Shown here: positions 35,312 through 44,238 of the stretch, piece by piece
How positions within the stretch are numbered: position 1 is the stretch's first letter
Layout: each line of letters opens with the position of its first letter
Source of the DNA: Syntrophobacterales bacterium
GTDB lineage: Bacteria; Desulfobacterota; Syntrophia; Syntrophales; UBA5619
Direction: 5' to 3'
Assembly: GCA_019429105.1 (NCBI GenBank)
Contig: JAHYJE010000022.1
Coordinates: 1-61,448, forward strand
Length of the DNA: 61,448 nucleotides
The notes under the pieces: generated by a model
Seen by the model: the letters and a program-made list of their open reading frames with translations, nothing else
Databases searched by the model: none
Told to the model about the DNA's origin: nothing
Position numbers and translations under genes: made by a program

Positions 35312-36622
35312 GTGAACGTTGATATAGGAACAGTTTCCGCAGTCATTGTAGCCCTGCTGATCGTTTTCCTGGGCGGATCGCTCTGGATAGGGATAGCCCT
35401 GTTTCTGGTCGGCATGGGGAGCTTTTTTATCTTCACCGACGTTTCCTTCGGCTCCATTCTGGCCAATATCGCCTGGAACAACACCAGCGGCTCGGCAATG
35501 ATGGCACTGCCGTTTTTTATCTGGATGGGGGAGATCCTCTTCCGCAGCAGTATTTCGGAAAACCTTTTTCGGGGGCTGTCTCCGTGGATGGACTCCATTC
35601 CGGGACGACTCATCCACGTGAATATTTTTGCCTCCACGTTCTTTGCCGCCGTCAGCGGCTCGTCCGCCGCCACTACCGCAACCGTCGGCAAGATAACCAT
35701 CCCCGAGCTGGAAAAACGGGGGTACAACCACAGCCTGTCGATGGGCTCGCTGGCCGGAGCGGGAACACTGGGGTTCATGATCCCGCCCAGCATGATGATG
35801 CTTGTTTACGGGATAATCGGGGATGTCAGCATCGGCAAGCTATTCATTGCCGGTTTTATCCCCGGCTTCCTGATCGCCTCCCTGTTCAGCGGTTATATCA
35901 TCCTGCGCTGCCTGATCTCGCCCGAGCTGGCGCCGCGCAGCGCTGAGAAAAACACCTGGAAGGAGCGTTTTCTCGCCATTCCGGCCATTCTGCCGGTTGT
36001 CATTCTTGTTCTCTTCGTCCTTGGCAGCATCTACATGGGCTGGGCGACGCCGACGGAAGCCGGGGCAATCGGCGTCATCGGCGCCCTGTTTTTTGCCCTG
36101 ATCACCAGCAGCCTGGACTGGGGGGTTTTCAAAACGAGTCTCATCGGCACGGTAAAAACAAGCTCCATGATCATGCTGATCGTCATGGGGGCGGCGTACC
36201 TTTCCAACGTTATCGGCTACATGGGAATTACCCGGGCGCTGACAACGCTGGTTACCGAAATGGGGCTTTCCCCCTACATGCTGATCGTCATTCTGACAGC
36301 CCTTTATCTCGTTCTCGGCTGCCTCATCGACGGCTTTTCGATGATCGTCATGACGACGCCAATCGTCGTTCCGTTGATACAGGCCGCAAAATTCGACACG
36401 GTCTGGTTCGGCATCTATCTTGTCCTGATGATCGAGCTCGCCCAGATAACGCCGCCGGTCGGCTTCAACCTGTTCGTCATCAGCGGGCTGAACAATGACG
36501 ACCTGGGAACGATCGCCAAGGCGGCTCTTCCCTTTTTTCTGATCATGCTGCTGGCCGCCGTTCTGCTTACGGTCTTTCCGGAAATCGCCCTTTATCTACC
36601 GAACCGGATGATCGGCAAGTAG
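35312..36622 (+). CDS. dctM: TRAP transporter large permease (DctM)
   Basis: 436 residues, about 12 spans. Family motifs include SGSSAATTATVGKITIPELE, GAGTLGFMIPPSMMMLVYGI and ELAQITPPVGFNLFVI, which form the transport core. The GTG start has GGAG seven to eight bases upstream. Encoded between dctQ and pxpA on the same strand, 84 bases before pxpA. Confidence 0.93.
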   Translation: MNVDIGTVSAVIVALLIVFLGGSLWIGIALFLVGMGSFFIFTDVSFGSILANIAWNNTSGSAMMALPFFIWMGEILFRSSISENLFRGLSPWMDSIPGRLIHVNIFASTFFAAVSGSSAATTATVGKITIPELEKRGYNHSLSMGSLAGAGTLGFMIPPSMMMLVYGIIGDVSIGKLFIAGFIPGFLIASLFSGYIILRCLISPELAPRSAEKNTWKERFLAIPAILPVVILVLFVLGSIYMGWATPTEAGAIGVIGALFFALITSSLDWGVFKTSLIGTVKTSSMIMLIVMGAAYLSNVIGYMGITRALTTLVTEMGLSPYMLIVILTALYLVLGCLIDGFSMIVMTTPIVVPLIQAAKFDTVWFGIYLVLMIELAQITPPVGFNLFVISGLNNDDLGTIAKAALPFFLIMLLAAVLLTVFPEIALYLPNRMIGK

Positions 36623-36705
36623 CGCCTTTGGGTTGTAACTTTAAGCGCGGCTGGAACAATGGATGAGGACAAGCGACATTTCCTGATTCAGCAAAGGAGT
36701 CGGCA

Positions 36706-37473
36706 ATGAAAAAAATTGACATCAACTGCGACATGGGCGAGAGCTTCGGCGCCTACACCCTTGGCATGGACGGCGAGGTGATAAAGCACATAAGTTCCGC
36801 GAATATCGCCTGCGGGTACCATGCCGGCGATCCGCAGGTCATGAACAAAACAGTCAAGCTTGCCCGGGAAAACGGCGTTGCCGTAGGCGCGCATCCCGGA
36901 TACCCCGATCTGGTCGGATTCGGACGGCGCAACATGGATTGCACCTCCGCTGAGGTTCGCGATTTTGTCATCTACCAGGTTGCCGCGTTAAAAGGTTTTT
37001 GCAGTCTGCACAGGGCAAAGATGCAGCATGTAAAGCCGCACGGCAATCTCTACAACATGAGCGTCGGCAATGAAAATCTATCCCGGGCAATCGCGGAGGC
37101 AATCGCCGCGGTCGATTGCAATCTTATCTGGGTAGTCCTCGGCGGCGCCCAGGCTGCACTGGCGCAAAAAATCGCCGCTGAAACGGGGATCAGGGTCGCC
37201 TTCGAAGCGTTTCCCGATCGCACCTACGACCCGGACGGTAAACTCACTTCGCGCAAACGTCCCGGCGCCGTGATCGAGGATCCTAAACGGAGCGTCGAGC
37301 AGGCCCTGCGGATGGCCATTGACGGCGAGGTAATCGCCGTTGACGGCTCCCGGCTCCAGATGGAAATCCACACCCTCTGTCTGCATGGCGACAACCCCTC
37401 CGCTGTCCAGCATACCCGCGCCATCAGACAGGCGCTGGAAGCCGAAGGGATTGGGGTCAGGTCTTTAAATTAA
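36706..37473 (+). CDS. pxpA: 5-oxoprolinase subunit A (LamB/YcsF family)
   Basis: 255 residues. With PxpB and PxpC it hydrolyses 5-oxoproline to glutamate using ATP. The start KKIDINCDMGESFGAYTLG and the SANIACGYHAGDPQVM motif with conserved His and Asp residues are typical. HPGYPDLVGFGRR and VKPHGNLYNM follow. AAAGGAG precedes the ATG. The order pxpA-B-C is conserved in many bacteria, and here it follows a TRAP transporter. Confidence 0.93.
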   Translation: MKKIDINCDMGESFGAYTLGMDGEVIKHISSANIACGYHAGDPQVMNKTVKLARENGVAVGAHPGYPDLVGFGRRNMDCTSAEVRDFVIYQVAALKGFCSLHRAKMQHVKPHGNLYNMSVGNENLSRAIAEAIAAVDCNLIWVVLGGAQAALAQKIAAETGIRVAFEAFPDRTYDPDGKLTSRKRPGAVIEDPKRSVEQALRMAIDGEVIAVDGSRLQMEIHTLCLHGDNPSAVQHTRAIRQALEAEGIGVRSLN

Positions 37474-37487
37474 GTGTTTTGAAAACT

Positions 37488-38192
37488 ATGCCTCATCTTT
37501 TTGAAGAACCGCACTTCAGAATGAGCGGGGACCGGGCGCTGCTGGTTGATTACGGCGAGGGCATCGCTCTTTCCGTAAACGAAAAAGTGCTCGCAATCTC
37601 TTCGCTGCTTCGCCATAATCCGCCGCAGGGCGTGCAAGCCGTTGTGCCCGCCTACCGCTCTTTCGCGATTATTTACGACCCCCTCCTGACAGAACCGGAT
37701 ATATTGAAAAGGGAAATAAGCAGCATCGAAAATTACCACAACCACGCGCTCCGGCCGGAGGCGCAGCTTGTTTCCATTCCCGTCCGCTATGGCGACGAAT
37801 GGGGGCCAGACATCGCCATCGTCTCAGCGCATACGGGGCTCAAAACCGAAGAAATCATCCAGCTCCACTCCTCCCGCGAATATCCCGTTTACATGATCGG
37901 CTTCACACCGGGGTTCTGTTACCTCGGAGGGATGGACGAAAGGCTGAAAACTCCCCGCCGGGAAACGCCGCGCGTCAGTATTCCCGCCGGCTCCGTGGGA
38001 ATAGCGGAGATGCAGACCGGCATGTATCCCGTCGAAAGTCCCGGTGGCTGGCAGATAATCGGCAAAACGCCGCTCAGGCTGTTCGCCCCGGAGAGAGAAA
38101 ACCCCTTTCTTTACAAGGCGGGGGACCGTATCCGCTTTGAACCCATATCCGCGAATGAATTCGATAGAATATACAAAAAGGAGCACTCCTGA
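37488..38192 (+). CDS. pxpB: 5-oxoprolinase subunit B (KipI family)
   Basis: 234 residues from ATG 37488. The KipI/PxpB domain is clear: GDRALLVDYGEGIAL near the N-terminus and YMIGFTPGFCYLGGMDERL (about 130-150), followed by RVSIPAGSVGIAEMQTGMYP. The listed start lacks a strong ribosome site; a TTG at 37479 in frame is an alternative. Its TGA overlaps the pxpC ATG (TGATG). Confidence 0.92.
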   Translation: MPHLFEEPHFRMSGDRALLVDYGEGIALSVNEKVLAISSLLRHNPPQGVQAVVPAYRSFAIIYDPLLTEPDILKREISSIENYHNHALRPEAQLVSIPVRYGDEWGPDIAIVSAHTGLKTEEIIQLHSSREYPVYMIGFTPGFCYLGGMDERLKTPRRETPRVSIPAGSVGIAEMQTGMYPVESPGGWQIIGKTPLRLFAPERENPFLYKAGDRIRFEPISANEFDRIYKKEHS

Positions 38193-39160
38193 TGGATATT
38201 TTTATCGTCAAAAACCCGGGAGCGCTCACGACCATCCAGGATCTCGGCCGTTTCGGCTTTCTCGACAGGGGAGTTCCCCCTTCCGGGGCGCTTGACTCCT
38301 CTGCCTGTCGCATTGCCAATCTGCTTGTCGGAAATCAGGAAAATATGGGCGTTTTGGAAATAACGGTCATGGGACCCATTCTTGAGGCGATGGAGGCGGC
38401 CGATATCGCGATCGCCGGCGCGGAAATGGGAATGACAATCAACAAAACTCCAGTCCCGGCGTGGCGTTCCCTACGGATAAAAAAAGGGGATGTCATCAGG
38501 ATTCCCCTGGCGGAAAAGGGATGCCGGGCCTATCTTGCGGTGAACGGCGGGTTTGCTGCGCCGGTTGTCATGGGAAGCCGCTCCACTTTCGTCCGGGCCG
38601 GCTTCGGCGGCTTCCAGGGACGGGCGCTGGTGAAGGGGGATATATTGAAAAAGGGAAAAGCCGCCCTGCTGGAACAGCCTCTCCTCCTACCTTCTGAATT
38701 TATTCCTGAATATCCAAAAGAGCTTGTATTGGCGGCAATCCCGGGACCACAGGAAGGCTCCTTCAAGGGAGCTCTCGACCTGTTTTTTACAGCCCGCTAT
38801 GAAGTAACGGCGCAAAGCGACCGGATGGGGTACAGACTTAGGGGACCCCTCATCGAGCATGACCCGGATGCGCCCCAAAGCATTATAACCGAACCTGTTG
38901 TGCCGGGAAACATTCAGATTCCCGCCGACGGCCAACCTATCATTCTTCTGGTGGAACAGACAACCGGGGGCTATTCCAAAATCGCCACCGTCATCACGGC
39001 AGATCTCAAGAAAGTGGCCCAAGCCCTGCCCGGCAACATCGTAATATTCGCGCAGACCTCCATCGAGGAGGCGCATCGCCTCTACCGGGAGGAGGAACGC
39101 CGTTTGGAAAAAATCCGCGCCCTCTTATCACTGCCCCGCCTTCAGACCGTATTTTTTTAG
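38192..39160 (+). CDS. pxpC: 5-oxoprolinase subunit C (KipA family)
   Basis: 322 residues. The KipA/PxpC (carboxyltransferase C/D-like) fold shows NPGALTTIQDLGRFGFLDRG at the start, PPSGALDSSACRIANLLVGN, and VLLVEQTTGGY-like ILLVEQTTGGYSKIATV near 250. GGAG in the end of pxpB serves as its ribosome site. Its last 33 bases overlap the end of the convergent response-regulator gene on the other strand. Confidence 0.93.
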   Translation: MDIFIVKNPGALTTIQDLGRFGFLDRGVPPSGALDSSACRIANLLVGNQENMGVLEITVMGPILEAMEAADIAIAGAEMGMTINKTPVPAWRSLRIKKGDVIRIPLAEKGCRAYLAVNGGFAAPVVMGSRSTFVRAGFGGFQGRALVKGDILKKGKAALLEQPLLLPSEFIPEYPKELVLAAIPGPQEGSFKGALDLFFTARYEVTAQSDRMGYRLRGPLIEHDPDAPQSIITEPVVPGNIQIPADGQPIILLVEQTTGGYSKIATVITADLKKVAQALPGNIVIFAQTSIEEAHRLYREEERRLEKIRALLSLPRLQTVFF

Positions 39161-40498
39161 CTTATAGCGGAGCATCCTTTCGCTGATGCCCAAAAGCGCG
39201 GCCGCGCGGCTTTGATGATCGCCGGTTTTTTCCATCGCCTCGGCAATCAACTTTCTTTCCAGCTCCTCAACCGATTGACGCAGAACCCCATCCTCCGTCT
39301 TTTTTCCCCCGTCCGTTTCTTCGATTCCCTCGCCAAAAGGTAGATCGGCAACGGAGATAATATCTTCCCGGGCAATAACGACCGCTCTTTCTATGATGTT
39401 TTCCAGTTCCCGGACGTTTCCGGGATAGTCGTATTTGAGCAGCATATCCAGCGCCTCGCTGCTTGTCCCCTCAATTTCTCTGGAGTTTTCCCTGGCATAG
39501 CGCACAAGAAAATGGTCGATGAGCGGCGGGATGTCCTCCTTGCGCTCCCGAAGCGGCGGCAACTGCATTGTAACGACATTGAGCCGGTAGAAGAGGTCTT
39601 CCCGAAACCCTCCTCCCTTCGCCATCCTTTCCAGATCGCGGTTGGTCGCGCTGATCACCCGGACATCGGCATGCAGGGTCTGATTGCCGCCGAGACGCTG
39701 AAACTCCCGCTCCTGCAAAAATCGCAGCAGCTTCACCTGCACCTGCGGCGAAAGCTCGCCGATCTCGTCGAGAAAAAGCGTCCCCCCGTCCGCCTCCTCG
39801 AACCGGCCGATCCGCCGCGCAGCAGCGCCGGTAAACGCCCCCTTTTCGTGGCCGAAAAGCTCGCTCTCCAACAGATTCTCGTTCAAGGCACCGCAATTAA
39901 CGGCAATAATTCTTCCTTCCGACCGCGGGCTCAGATTGTGGATCAGGCGGGCAAAAAGCTCCTTGCCCGTCCCGCTTTCCCCCTGCAGCAGGATCGTCGC
40001 CCGGCTTGCCGCAACCCTTCCCGCCATATTGATCAGGGCGCCCATCTTTTCGTTGCGGAAGACTATTTTATCCGTGGAGACGCCTTTCTGACCGAGGTGA
40101 TCGCGGAGAATTTCATTTTCCCTGATCAGCGTCCTCCGTTCCGAGACGCGCCCCACCAAAAGGAGCAGCTCATCGAATTCAACCGGCTTCGTGATATAAT
40201 CCAGTGCGCCCGCCTTCATCGCCTCCACGGCCGTCTCGATCGTCCCGAACGCGGTAATAATAACCACATCAATCTCGGGATTTATCTTTTTTACCGACTG
40301 AAGAACCTCCATTCCGTCCATCCCGGGCATTTTATAGTCGAGCAGCAGCAGATCGAAGTGTCTATCCCTGACCTGCTGAATGGCCAGTGGCCCGTTTTCC
40401 GCTTCACCGACCGAGTGCCCCTCCTTTTTCAGGAAATCCCTCAACATCTCTCGCTGCGAACGCCCGTCATCAACAACCAGTATATTTAGTTTTTTCAT
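39128..40498 (-). CDS. NtrC-type sigma-54 response regulator
   Basis: 456 residues. The receiver domain has D10-D11 and the phospho-acceptor D54 ([12 protein letters not shown]). The AAA+ domain has Walker A GESGTGKE and an intact GAFTGA loop ([14 protein letters not shown]), so it should open sigma-54 promoters. A Fis-type helix-turn-helix ends the protein ([22 protein letters not shown]). The start overlaps the stop of the histidine-kinase gene (TAATG). It could act on the sigma-54 promoter found at 42560-42575, 270 bases beyond the kinase start. Regulated genes otherwise unknown. Confidence 0.94.
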
Positions 40499-42291
40499 TA
40501 TTTTGCCGCCGCCTTTTCCTTGAGCCTTTCTGTCGGCATAAATATCTCGAATACCGTCCCCTCACCCTTTTGGCTTTTCACCCGTATCTCTCCCCCATGT
40601 CCGCGGATTATTTCGTGGGCCAGCGAAAGACCAAGGCCAAAGCCCTTTTCCTTTGTCGTGTATTCCGGATTGAAAATCCGTTCCACCTCTTCCGGGGTCA
40701 ATCCGCATCCCGTATCGGTGATTATGATTTTAACCAGACCCTTTTCCTCATTGATGATGGCAAGGGTCACGTCGCCTGTGCCGCTGATCGACTCCACGGC
40801 GTTCTTGACAAAATTCAGCAGGGCCTGCTGGAGCTTGTCCATATCCATCGGGATCACGATCGGTTCTTCGGGCCAATCGGCCCTGATGCTGACGCCCTTC
40901 GCGGAGGCCTCTGCGGAAGCCAGATTCACAATCTTCCGCAAAACATCCTGGACGGCGCTTTCCCGCAGCTCCAGGCGCCTGCTTTTGGAAAAGGTCAGAA
41001 ACTCCTCGATGATTCCGTTCAAACGTCTGATCTCGTCGCGAATGACCGTTGTTATCGTATCAAATTCTTCTTTCTTTCCCAGTTCAGAGGGAGGGAATTC
41101 CCTCTTCAGGCGTTGGCTGGCCATGCTGATCGCGTTTAGCGGATTGCGAATCTCGTGGGCAACGCCGGCGGCAAGCATCCCCAGAGAGGAGAGCCTTTCA
41201 GCCTTTTCCAGTTGTCTGGTCATCTCCACTACCCGCCCCAGGTGCCGGTTCTGATTATGGTAAAGAAGCCACAGCGAAAGCAGGGTAATCGCGATCACAA
41301 AAACAAGAAACAGATAGACGTTCCTCCTGTTTTCCATCAATATTTTGTCGGTGTTCCCCCGGTCGAGGCCCAGAATAATAACACCCAGAGTCTCTTTCCC
41401 GAGGTAAAAAGGGGCTGTTATTTCCTGAACGCTGTTTTCTCCACGGCTTGTTTTCGCGCTTTTGAACCTCATGGCGCCGGAAAGGATGCTGCTTCTCAGC
41501 GAATCATCCAGCCTTCCCTCACCCGACATGAACCCGATACTACCGAGATCAAGCCCCTTGGCATCGCTTATGGCGAGGTAAAGTAGCCCCTGACCCTTCC
41601 CCAGTTTCTCTATCGCCCGTTCCACGGAAACCCTCATTCCCCAATAACGCATACTCTCCCGGTCAAGGGCAAGAACAATGGTTCCGCTTTCATCCTTGCG
41701 GCTCATGGCAATAAAGCCGATTTTCTTTTGCCGGTTCAGGGTGTTTAACCCCTTGATAAGCTCCGCGGCGCTTTGTTTTATGTTTTTTTTCTCCTGAACG
41801 TCGGCACGCAGGTTTTCGGCGACCAGCCGGCTCTGGAAAATGACGTCACCAGCGGCATTAAGGACGGCTACCAGCCAGATGTTCTTTTTGCGTGCAAATT
41901 CATCTATATATGAACCGCTGATATGCTCCTTTTTCCAGTGATTGTCTATTTCCCTGCCCATCGCGATGATCTTTTCGGTTAGCAGCGTATCGGGAGAAAA
42001 TATCTGCTCTTTCAGGGAGATGGCGACGCTTCCCGGAGTTTTCTGAGAGGCCGCAATCATGTTTTTCAGATTTTCCTCGGTCAGCTTTTCCACTACCCCA
42101 ATTATCCGCCGGCCCTGATCTTCGATAAAGCCGCTCAGCATTCGTTCACTGCGCCGCATATCGCTCAAGCCCATGGTCAAGATAAGAATAATGAAAATGG
42201 CGCTGACCAGGATGACAGCGAAAGGTTGGATAAACCGGAACTTGAACCGATGAGCGCCCCGCAGACGGGTGATATTTTCTTCAGAATTCAT
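40498..42291 (-). CDS. Membrane sensor histidine kinase of NtrB type
   Basis: 597 residues. Two membrane spans (about 22-42 and 325-345) flank a ~280-residue periplasmic sensor region of unknown ligand. The phospho-acceptor H379 lies in GVAHEIRNPLNAISM. The N, G1 and G2 boxes are seen in LLNFVKNAVESI, ITDTGCGLTPEE and TKEKGFGLGLSLAHEI. It should phosphorylate the regulator encoded immediately downstream. The sensor region looks like a double-Cache-type module (paired segments around VAVLNAAGDVIF and LYLAISDAKGLDLG), by eye only. Confidence 0.92.
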   Translation of the reverse strand: MNSEENITRLRGAHRFKFRFIQPFAVILVSAIFIILILTMGLSDMRRSERMLSGFIEDQGRRIIGVVEKLTEENLKNMIAASQKTPGSVAISLKEQIFSPDTLLTEKIIAMGREIDNHWKKEHISGSYIDEFARKKNIWLVAVLNAAGDVIFQSRLVAENLRADVQEKKNIKQSAAELIKGLNTLNRQKKIGFIAMSRKDESGTIVLALDRESMRYWGMRVSVERAIEKLGKGQGLLYLAISDAKGLDLGSIGFMSGEGRLDDSLRSSILSGAMRFKSAKTSRGENSVQEITAPFYLGKETLGVIILGLDRGNTDKILMENRRNVYLFLVFVIAITLLSLWLLYHNQNRHLGRVVEMTRQLEKAERLSSLGMLAAGVAHEIRNPLNAISMASQRLKREFPPSELGKKEEFDTITTVIRDEIRRLNGIIEEFLTFSKSRRLELRESAVQDVLRKIVNLASAEASAKGVSIRADWPEEPIVIPMDMDKLQQALLNFVKNAVESISGTGDVTLAIINEEKGLVKIIITDTGCGLTPEEVERIFNPEYTTKEKGFGLGLSLAHEIIRGHGGEIRVKSQKGEGTVFEIFMPTERLKEKAAAK

Positions 42292-42336: not shown

Positions 42337-42396
42337 TTCACCGAACAGCGGTCGGAATAAAGACGTTTCGACATTTTTGTCGATTGCTGACAAAAA
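42337..42396 (+). promoter_or_regulatory. Inverted repeats, candidate enhancer sites for the NtrC-type regulator
   Basis: TTTTTGTC (42374-42381) and GACAAAAA (42389-42396) form a perfect 8-bp inverted repeat with a 7-base gap. It overlaps a second one, CGACA-TTTT-TGTCG (42369-42382). Further left is GTTC-ACC-GAAC. They lie about 165-190 bases upstream of the sigma-54 promoter, the usual enhancer distance, and about 80-100 bases upstream of the kinase gene, so they could serve both. Confidence 0.55.
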
Positions 42397-42559
42397 GGCC
42401 CTCCTTCTAAAAGTAACTGTTATCATTCACTTTAATTATTATTAAAATCATCCGGGGCGACATTTATTGCCTCCCTTTTGGGAAAGCAGGGAAAGACAGT
42501 ATCGATCGCCATACTATAATTATAAATTATTTCATTGCCTTATCGGCATTACCTATCTA

Positions 42560-42575
42560 TGGCACACTTAATGCT
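42560..42575 (+). promoter_or_regulatory. Sigma-54 (-24/-12) promoter of a candidate sRNA
   Basis: TGGCACACTTAATGCT matches the consensus TGGCAC-R-N4-TTGCW with one mismatch, and has exact GG-to-GC spacing. Predicted start of transcription is near 42586. No protein gene follows on this strand; an intrinsic terminator does. Confidence 0.75.
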
Positions 42576-42585
42576 GTATAAATCT

Positions 42586-42707
42586 ACAAAGATACATGCT
42601 GACTGATCGCGGGCACGATCAAACAGCGCTGAAATAGAAAAGGAAGGCCAACAAGCTTTCCAACTCCTGAATGAGGGGGGGTTCTTTGAACCTCCCCTTT
42701 TGTTATT
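42586..42707 (+). ncRNA. Candidate sigma-54-dependent small RNA (~120 nt)
   Basis: Between the sigma-54 promoter and the terminator three stem-loops follow one another. Hairpin A: GCTG...CAGC enclosing GATCG-CGGGCA-CGATC (42598-42627). Hairpin B: GGAAGGC-CAACAA-GCTTTCC (42642-42661). The third is the terminator (42675-42707). No plus-strand open frame with a ribosome site is present. Hairpin B carries AAGGAAGG, similar to a ribosome-binding site, and a CAACAA loop. The placement beside an NtrBC-type pair recalls CbrAB-controlled CrcZ of Pseudomonas, a known sigma-54 sRNA; homology is not claimed. Expression not tested. Confidence 0.65.
42675..42707 (+). terminator. Intrinsic terminator of the candidate sRNA
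   Basis: GGGGGGGTTC pairs with GAACCTCCCC (one G-U) around a TTT loop, followed by TTTTGTTATT. On the minus strand no T-run follows, so it serves the plus strand, where no protein gene exists. Confidence 0.85.
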
Positions 42708-42813
42708 AACCCGTGTCCCTTTGTCCATTTTAACTTCCACTTAACCAATAAATATGCCAACTCCGATAAAAAAGTCTCCGCTGCCAGACAATTCCCGAAA
42801 AAAGGGACATCCC

Positions 42814-42868
42814 TTTCACTTTTCACTTTTCACTTTTCACTTTTTACCTTTCACCTTTTACCTTTTTC
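42814..42868. repeat. Heptamer tandem repeat at the 3' end of rarA
   Basis: About seven units of a 7-8 base repeat (TTTCACT and variants TTTTACC, TTTCACC) run through the last codons and the 3' flank of rarA. The rarA stop lies inside it, so unit-number changes would alter the last residues. Confidence 0.8.
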
Positions 42869-44215
42869 TCGTCTTGCGGCATCGGAATTCTTCATCAGCC
42901 GCCATTGTTCGATTCGTTCCCGGATGATCTTCTCATAACCCCGGTCTGTCGGCTTATAGAAGCGCCCCTTTTCGCCGCGGAGTTCGTCGGGCAGATATTC
43001 CTGGGCAACAAATGCATCCGAAAAATCATGGGCGTAGAGATATCCCTTCCCGTAGCCCAACTCCTTCATCAAACCAGTGGGGGCGTTGCGGATATGCAGC
43101 GGCACGGGAAGAGCGCCGGTTTTCTCTATGGCATGTCCAGTTCTGCCGTAGCACTCATAAAGGGCGTTGCTCTTCGTTGCCGTGGCAAGATAAACGGCCG
43201 CCTGGAAAAGCGCCAGTTCCCCCTCCGGCGAACCGAGAAAATGGTACGCCTGCATCGCATCGATTGCCACGCCCAGCGCCCGGGGATCGGCATTCCCGAT
43301 ATCCTCCGAGGCAAAGCGGATCATCCGTCTGACGAGATAAAGGGGATCTTCGCCCGCCATGAGCATCCGCCGCAGCCAGTAAACTGCCGCGTCCGGGTCG
43401 CTGCCCCGGAGGCTTTTGTGCAGCGCCGAGATCAGATTGTAGTGTTCTTCGCCATCTTTATCATAAAGGAGCGCCTTTTTTTGAATCGCCCGCTCGACAA
43501 CTGCACGGGTGATCAGGCCGTTACTTTCCAAGCCTTTGTCCACAAGCGAAGCTGCCGCTTCGAGATTGTTCAACGCAGTTCGGGCATCGCCATCGGCATA
43601 ATCGGCAATTTGCAGGAGGGCGTCCGGCTCGATCTCCAGATTGAGGGCGCCCAGCCCGCGCTCGGCGTCAGTCAGGGCGTTCCTGATGATCCCGGAAAGT
43701 TCCTCGACGGTAAACGGCTTGAGGGTAAGAACCCGCATCCGGGACAATAGCGCCGAGATAACCTCAAACGACGGGTTCTCCGTGGTCGCGCCGATCAGGG
43801 TTATCAGGCCGCTTTCGACATGGGGCAAAAAGGCGTCCTGCTGGGCCTTGTTGAAGCGGTGAATCTCGTCCACAAAGAGAATCGTCCGGCGGCCGCTGAG
43901 ACGAAGCAGCCCGGATGCCTCCTCAACGACAGAGCGTATTTCCTTTACTCCGGAGAGCACAGCGGAAAAACTGATGAAATGGGATTTGGTCTCTTTGGCC
44001 AATATTCGGGCCAGGGTTGTCTTTCCTGAACCGGGCGGCCCCCAAAATATTATCGAAAAAAGGCGATCCTCCGCAATGGCCCTTTTCAAAAGGGTATCGC
44101 CAGCAAGGAGATGCCCCTGGCCAAGGTATTCATCAAGACTCCGCGGGCGCATCCGATCGGCCAGCGGTCGGTTGTCTGTTCCCGGGGTTTTTTTATCGAA
44201 CAGCTCCGTTTCCAC
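42851..44215 (-). CDS. rarA: Replication-associated recombination protein A (MgsA/WRNIP1 family ATPase)
   Basis: 454 residues from GTG 44215, with AGGA six to seven bases upstream; a TTG at 44221 is the longer option. The AAA+ clamp-loader-like ATPase acts at stalled replication forks. Walker A is [15 protein letters not shown], Walker [19 protein letters not shown], sensor 1 [12 protein letters not shown]. The C-terminal tetramerisation region ([26 protein letters not shown]) is complete. It follows the small 92-aa gene by 23 bases. Confidence 0.93.
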
Positions 44216-44238
44216 TCCCAATCCTGTTGATAATTAAT

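Follow-up and report, generated by a model that had tools for sequence, protein, structure and literature searches.

The segment at positions 42560-42706 (+) of the window, by which is meant the whole stretch of 61,448 nucleotides analysed here, is predicted to be a conserved non-coding RNA gene, and chance is ruled out as an explanation. By comparison of genomes it is a member of an order-wide, undescribed RNA family, and a variant of the sigma-54/two-component control logic already known for small RNAs. The RNA is probably the dedicated output of an envelope-stress two-component system, acting independently of Hfq by pairing with Shine-Dalgarno sequences. The sequence comparisons support the RNA gene, its fold, promoter, enhancer and linkage to a kinase, as well as the envelope nature of other genes that bear the same enhancer. 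A preliminary description had proposed a sigma-54-driven small RNA beside a kinase and a GAFTGA-containing regulator, and the promoter, enhancer and linkage all lend support to that candidate. Predicted control of the RNA by the kinase/regulator pair and sigma-54 is well supported by comparison. The predicted features of the locus are:

39128..40498 (-): response regulator/sigma-54 activator, AtoC/ZraR-like, 456 aa (REC, AAA+ and HTH_8)
40498..42291 (-): divergent sensor histidine kinase, ZraS/AtoS-like, 597 aa (Pfam HisKA and HATPase_c)
42369..42382 (strand not assigned): enhancer palindrome (UAS1) CGACATTTTTGTCG, putative response-regulator site (conserved dyad)
42458..42471 (strand not assigned): second, degenerate enhancer half (UAS2) CGACATTTATTGCC (conserved half-site)
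42560..42575 (+): sigma-54 (-24/-12) promoter TGGCACACTTAATGCT, GG-N10-GC spacing (pattern match, conserved in copies)
42587..42706 (+): small RNA, ~120 nt (fold z, covariance models R1 and R2, spread in the order)
42595..42631 (+): hairpin A, with conserved apical loop CGGGCA at 42610-42615 (fold, covariation)
42642..42661 (+): hairpin B, GGAAGGC-CAACAA-GCUUUCC (stem kept by compensatory change)
42662..42673 (+): CU-rich unpaired linker AACUCCUGAAUG, Shine-Dalgarno-complementary, putative pairing site
42673..42704 (+): intrinsic terminator, 12-bp stem (42673-42698) and T-tail (fold, covariation)
42851..44221 (-): rarA/mgsA, convergent neighbour, not part of the system (conserved synteny)

Predicted Fold of the RNA

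The 5' end of the RNA was estimated from the promoter, and its 3' end from the terminator. The segment 42587-42706 folds with -44 kcal/mol (z = -4.6), and none of 200 shuffled sequences folded as well; the two hairpins and strong terminator described earlier were borne out and had been placed correctly. Pair-preserving two-sided changes were present in 8 of the 10 pairs of the main helix of hairpin A, while hairpin B was shorter or missing in some copies. Two unpaired parts of the RNA are conserved: the CGGGCA(C/U) loop and, over 46 aligned sequences, the ACUCCUGAA linker. Two exposed contact sites had been suggested earlier in hairpin B. One of these, AAGGAAGG, was wrongly assigned: it is largely paired and not exposed, because GGAAGGC forms the 5' arm of the hairpin. 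The other, the CAACAA loop, is present as described, but is not conserved.

No credible gene was found in the gap between the kinase and rarA. The sole listed open reading frame there (42584-42826, minus strand, 80 aa) runs antisense across the element. A short tandem repeat of CTTTTCA-type units occupies positions 42815-42870 of the window, between the terminator and the end of rarA.

Promoter and Enhancer

The near-consensus -24/-12 promoter with exact spacing that had been noted earlier was confirmed at 42560-42575 and is conserved. TGGCACACTTAATGCT is the only zero-mismatch match to the sigma-54 pattern in the 61-kb window. The motif alone is unconvincing, because the pattern with one mismatch was not enriched in the window (2 found, 3.3 expected by shuffling). 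A sigma-54 promoter was present in 56 of 60 kinase-linked copies of the RNA gene and in all 12 unlinked copies, compared with 0 of 9 weak matches. RpoN is encoded. Just 5' of the sigma-54 promoter, at 42493-42520 of the window, is a sigma-70-like promoter, AAGACA-N16-TATAAT, from which basal transcription could occur, as in glmY.

The window's UAS1, which extends to the palindrome TTCGACATTTTTGTCGA (42367-42383), is situated 191 bp upstream of the promoter, outside the region covered by the preliminary description, which missed it, although no other feature of the locus is as informative. A dyad search recovered CGACA-N4-TGTCG in 63 of 74 upstream regions, while the best dyad in shuffled regions reached 4 at most; by shuffling, 0.02 occurrences of the UAS1 dyad are expected in the window. 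Its median position is -192 from the -24 element (5-95% range, -199 to -182), and the UAS2 half-site, CGACA-N4-TTGCC, was found in 50 of the 74 regions at a median of -104. The exact enhancer accompanied 53/60 kinase-linked copies and 8/12 unlinked copies, but 0/9 weak matches. Enhancer and promoter at the set spacing were detected in 94 of 155 genomes of the order, covering 41 of 53 genera, against none in any of the 155 genomes with a reversed-pattern control. The single match to this combination in the window's genome is at the RNA gene; the exact extended palindrome has one further occurrence in that genome, without a promoter. The search patterns for promoter, enhancer and linker were written after the family alignments were known. 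Promoter and enhancer nevertheless represent independent support for the RNA gene, because neither was included in the covariance model. IHF sites between enhancer and promoter were seen in 10 of 74 regions (2.1 in shuffles), too few for a claim to be made.

Kinase-Regulator Pair and Its Linkage to the RNA

The kinase adjoins the RNA gene divergently in 60 of the 74 sampled copies, and the regulator gene follows the kinase gene in nearly all loci that extend far enough. Twelve copies are situated away from the kinase (L180 and L270 being one locus), and at L192 and one tandem copy of L254 the kinase is further off. The gene rarA is convergent, and within 1 kb, in 44 of the 60 kinase-linked copies. 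The preliminary description had staked its proposal on the promoter and hairpins recurring beside orthologous kinase genes, and both proved to be conserved there. At L254 (genome G026), the enhancer, promoter and RNA occur twice in tandem, 960 bp apart, beside the kinase.

The pair had been labelled NtrBC-type, a name that does not fit. The regulator scored 507 bits with the AtoC model, 457 with ZraR and 422 with NtrC, and the kinase scored 218 with AtoS, 211 with ZraS and 87 with NtrB, so that the kinase is nearest to the AtoS/ZraS models, and the regulator to AtoC/ZraR, with NtrC lower. The closest solved relative of the kinase is ZraS (PDB 9jfj; 34% identity over the kinase core). Both proteins missed the NCBIfam equivalog cut-offs (ZraS, 211 vs 479; ZraR, 457 vs 760), and the pair is best described, from these scores, as ZraSR-like and not as a ZraSR equivalog. 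The structure model of the kinase sensor was of moderate quality (mean pLDDT 76, pTM 0.46), and the Foldseek matches listed for the kinase model were mainly to kinase cores, with nothing reliable on a ligand.

Genes for a TRAP transporter (DctM) and 5-oxoprolinase-type proteins (LamB_YcsF, CT_C_D, CT_A_B), at 35312-39160 of the window, converge on the response regulator gene and overlap its 3' end.

Conservation and Distribution

A DNA similarity search recovered similar DNA in 15 genomes of the family. In the family alignment, the promoter, CGGGCA loop, linker CUCCUGAA and terminator were common to the copies, and 9 of 29 pairs showed two-sided changes, a signal that was lost when the partners were slid. 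A covariance model of the RNA without its promoter (R1) matched 9/9 good genomes of the family and 52/92 good genomes of the order. A wider model built on 46 sequences (R2), with a covariation score of 0.332 compared to at most 0.116 with slid partners, matched 63 of 92 high-quality genomes and 99 of 155 in total, representing 30 of the 53 genera of the order, which is presumably the Syntrophales. Among 395 genomes sampled across the phylum, strong covariance matches were confined to this order.

Weak covariance matches outside the order (L245-L251) were without promoter, enhancer and kinase, and were judged to be chance. A loose promoter-plus-core pattern applied to named genomes gave mostly chance matches in GC-rich genomes, and only L056, L115 and L116 were clearly real. 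Rfam searches returned no relevant match for the window, for the element (permissive search) or for 18 further loci, and no report on small RNAs of Syntrophales was found in the open-access literature.

ZraP-Like Genes and a Candidate Envelope Regulon

In families 2, 6, 13 and 15, the kinase operon is headed by a gene for a small exported LTXXQ/Metal_resist protein (Spy, CpxP, ZraP). In the window, no open reading frame for a Spy/ZraP-like protein was present between the kinase and the RNA. Outside the order, at L352, L355 and L365 in other families of the phylum, the same enhancer and promoter lead directly into an LTXXQ/Metal_resist (zraP-like) gene, with a divergent kinase of ~30% identity at L355 and L365. 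With this enhancer and promoter driving a zraP-like gene outside the order, the RNA occupies the place of zraP. Related loci differ in what a sensor of one kind has as its first output, a protein (zraP-like) or an RNA, and the envelope-stress system appears to work through an RNA here, in contrast to the protective protein made by its relatives.

Several paralogous copies of the RNA were found immediately 5' of, and codirectional with, genes for FKBP-type isomerases (L260, L323), RlpA-like DPBB proteins (L261, L263), a DUF4412 protein (L262) and sulfatase-superfamily enzymes (L344, L345). At the isomerase, RlpA-like and DUF4412 loci, which have the same enhancer and sigma-54 promoter, the terminated RNA may double as a leader. 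Enhancer and promoter, with no clear RNA of the model type, also precede a sulfatase gene (L343) and a methyltransferase gene (L342). At L322 (genome G027), the enhancer and sigma-54 promoter lead into an operon for a PEMT/ICMT-like methyltransferase and an EptA-like phosphoethanolamine transferase, with a hairpin-A-like remnant, CGCGGGCACGA, between the promoter and the gene. That the genes bearing this enhancer encode envelope functions argues for an envelope regulon, one that the enhancer makes readable directly from genomes.

Proposed Mode of Action

In the proposed mechanism, the membrane kinase (40498-42291) would sense an envelope signal, presumably a stress, and phosphorylate the regulator (39128-40498), which would then bind the palindrome at 42369-42382 and the half-site at 42458-42471. 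The bound regulator would activate sigma-54 polymerase at 42560-42575, giving an RNA of ~120 nt that would end at 42698-42706 and would carry hairpin A with its CGGGCA loop, hairpin B, and an unpaired CUCCU(CC)UGA linker complementary to Shine-Dalgarno sequences. This RNA would need no Hfq, and its most likely action would be to mask the Shine-Dalgarno region of mRNAs for envelope proteins.

A CUCC(U)/CUCUUC motif is predicted to be unpaired in 57 of 74 model-type RNAs, and also in 12 of 15 divergent RNAs with the same enhancer, from families outside the reach of the model; its position in families 2 and 15 is in a 5' hairpin loop. Linker variants include CUCCUGAA, CUCCUCCUGA, CUCUUC and CUCUUCUCUCCU, and some copies are without an unpaired motif. 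Retention of CUCC(U) while the rest of the RNA changes is what would be expected of a Shine-Dalgarno pairing site. Counts of double-seed targets (Shine-Dalgarno plus A/GTGCCCG at the start codon) were not above those of a reversed-pattern control, and the linker paired with the kinase's own 5' region no better than shuffles did (mean z, -0.2). As no target emerged from either test, the mechanism is one that we infer, whereas several independent lines of evidence back the gene, its fold and its control.

None of 21 genomes of the order, complete-grade genomes included, yielded Hfq (PF17209) in a search that recovers the E. coli and B. subtilis controls. An apparently Hfq-less Gram-negative lineage thus keeps an RNA that resembles an anti-Shine-Dalgarno RNA. 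The bacteria of this order are syntrophs of methanogenic habitats, where genetics is hard. A stress-response RNA this well defined, together with its enhancer, promoter and sensor, would offer a handle on their envelope control.

The arrangement may also bear on how the system evolved. It is conceivable, though on balance doubtful, that a ZraSR-type system swapped its periplasmic effector for a sigma-54-driven, Hfq-independent, anti-Shine-Dalgarno small RNA at the zraP position, and that this RNA became order-wide, spread as paralogues to envelope genes with the same enhancer, and was refolded while keeping CUCC(U).

Alternative Explanations

The element could have begun as a sigma-54-driven leader in which the terminator served as an attenuator, the downstream gene at the kinase locus having since been lost to leave the RNA as a by-product, with control by read-through and not in trans. 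Several paralogues directly 5' of codirectional envelope genes, the zraP-like gene driven directly by the same enhancer and promoter outside the order, and the hairpin-A-like remnant between promoter and gene in the methyltransferase-EptA operon are all consistent with such an origin. However, the kinase-locus copy has no gene to read into, rarA being convergent in 44 of 60 loci, and the complete fold there, with its loop and linker, has been kept throughout the order, which makes a leader origin unlikely. A role in sequestering protein, whether as a CrcZ-like Hfq sponge, a CsrA sponge or a GlmY-like decoy, is a slimmer prospect still. CrcZ sequesters Hfq/Crc via repeated A-rich motifs, and no repeated motif is present in the RNA here. 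The analogy to CbrAB-CrcZ drawn in the preliminary description was apt for control by a two-component system and sigma-54, but did not extend to mechanism, as the absence of Hfq from the 21 genomes, with positive controls, argues against a CrcZ-type sponge. A protein might bind the conserved CGGGCA loop, but the alignment has no GGA that is kept at a fixed position, and neither the window nor the 18 other loci matched an Rfam family. The control logic, sigma-54 with an adjacent two-component system, is nonetheless that of both CbrAB-CrcZ and QseEF-GlmY (PMC6075780).

That the element encodes a short peptide is highly improbable. A 13-codon frame, MLTDRGHDQTALK, is present in hairpin A, and some members of the same family have a similar open frame, LTERGHDQPTVK, but a stop interrupts the frame in the sister copy L002, as do stops in the other families, and the changes follow base pairing.

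Comparison with Known Systems

Among known systems, QseEF-GlmY comes nearest in its control logic. In the QseE/QseF (GlrKR)-GlmY system of Enterobacteriaceae (PMC6075780), as here, the sigma-54 promoter of a small RNA adjoins the kinase/regulator genes, and GlmY shares with the present RNA both upstream activating sequences and a link to the cell envelope (PMC6075780). The activating sequences differ, being TGT-N12-ACA for GlmY (PMC6075780) and CGACA-N4-TGTCG here, and the present RNA is divergent from the kinase, unlike the GlmY arrangement. There is no sequence relation to GlmY, the element having no Rfam match at gathering score. GlmY works through RapZ and GlmZ (PMC6075780).

The ZraPSR system of E. 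coli (PMC7657598) is related through its proteins: ZraS is the closest solved kinase, the regulator is ZraR/AtoC-like, and an LTXXQ/Metal_resist gene is also found at the locus in several families of the order. ZraSR of E. coli is linked to zinc and envelope stress, and ZraR activates zraP and zraSR, with mgtA the only additional direct target reported (PMC7657598). The differences are that the divergent output here is an RNA, and that the score of the kinase falls well short of the ZraS equivalog cut-off.

Two Gram-positive systems provide further parallels. LhrC of Listeria, under LisRK (PMC4132741), is likewise a multicopy small RNA of similar length under two-component control; it responds to envelope stress, binds target mRNA via CU-rich sites and is Hfq-independent for lapB (PMC4132741). 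It is not sigma-54-dependent, however, and no sequence homology is claimed. The csRNAs of Streptococcus, under CiaRH (PMC3091779), are also related small RNAs under two-component control, with an unpaired anti-Shine-Dalgarno region between stem-loops, but they are not driven by sigma-54, have another structure and belong to unrelated organisms.

RNAs with the same enhancer but another fold, which the covariance model missed, were observed in families 2, 6, 15 and 18 (L332-L341, L346-L348 and L351). They expose CUCCUCC, often followed by GGCUUAAACC, and are possibly a separate RNA family.
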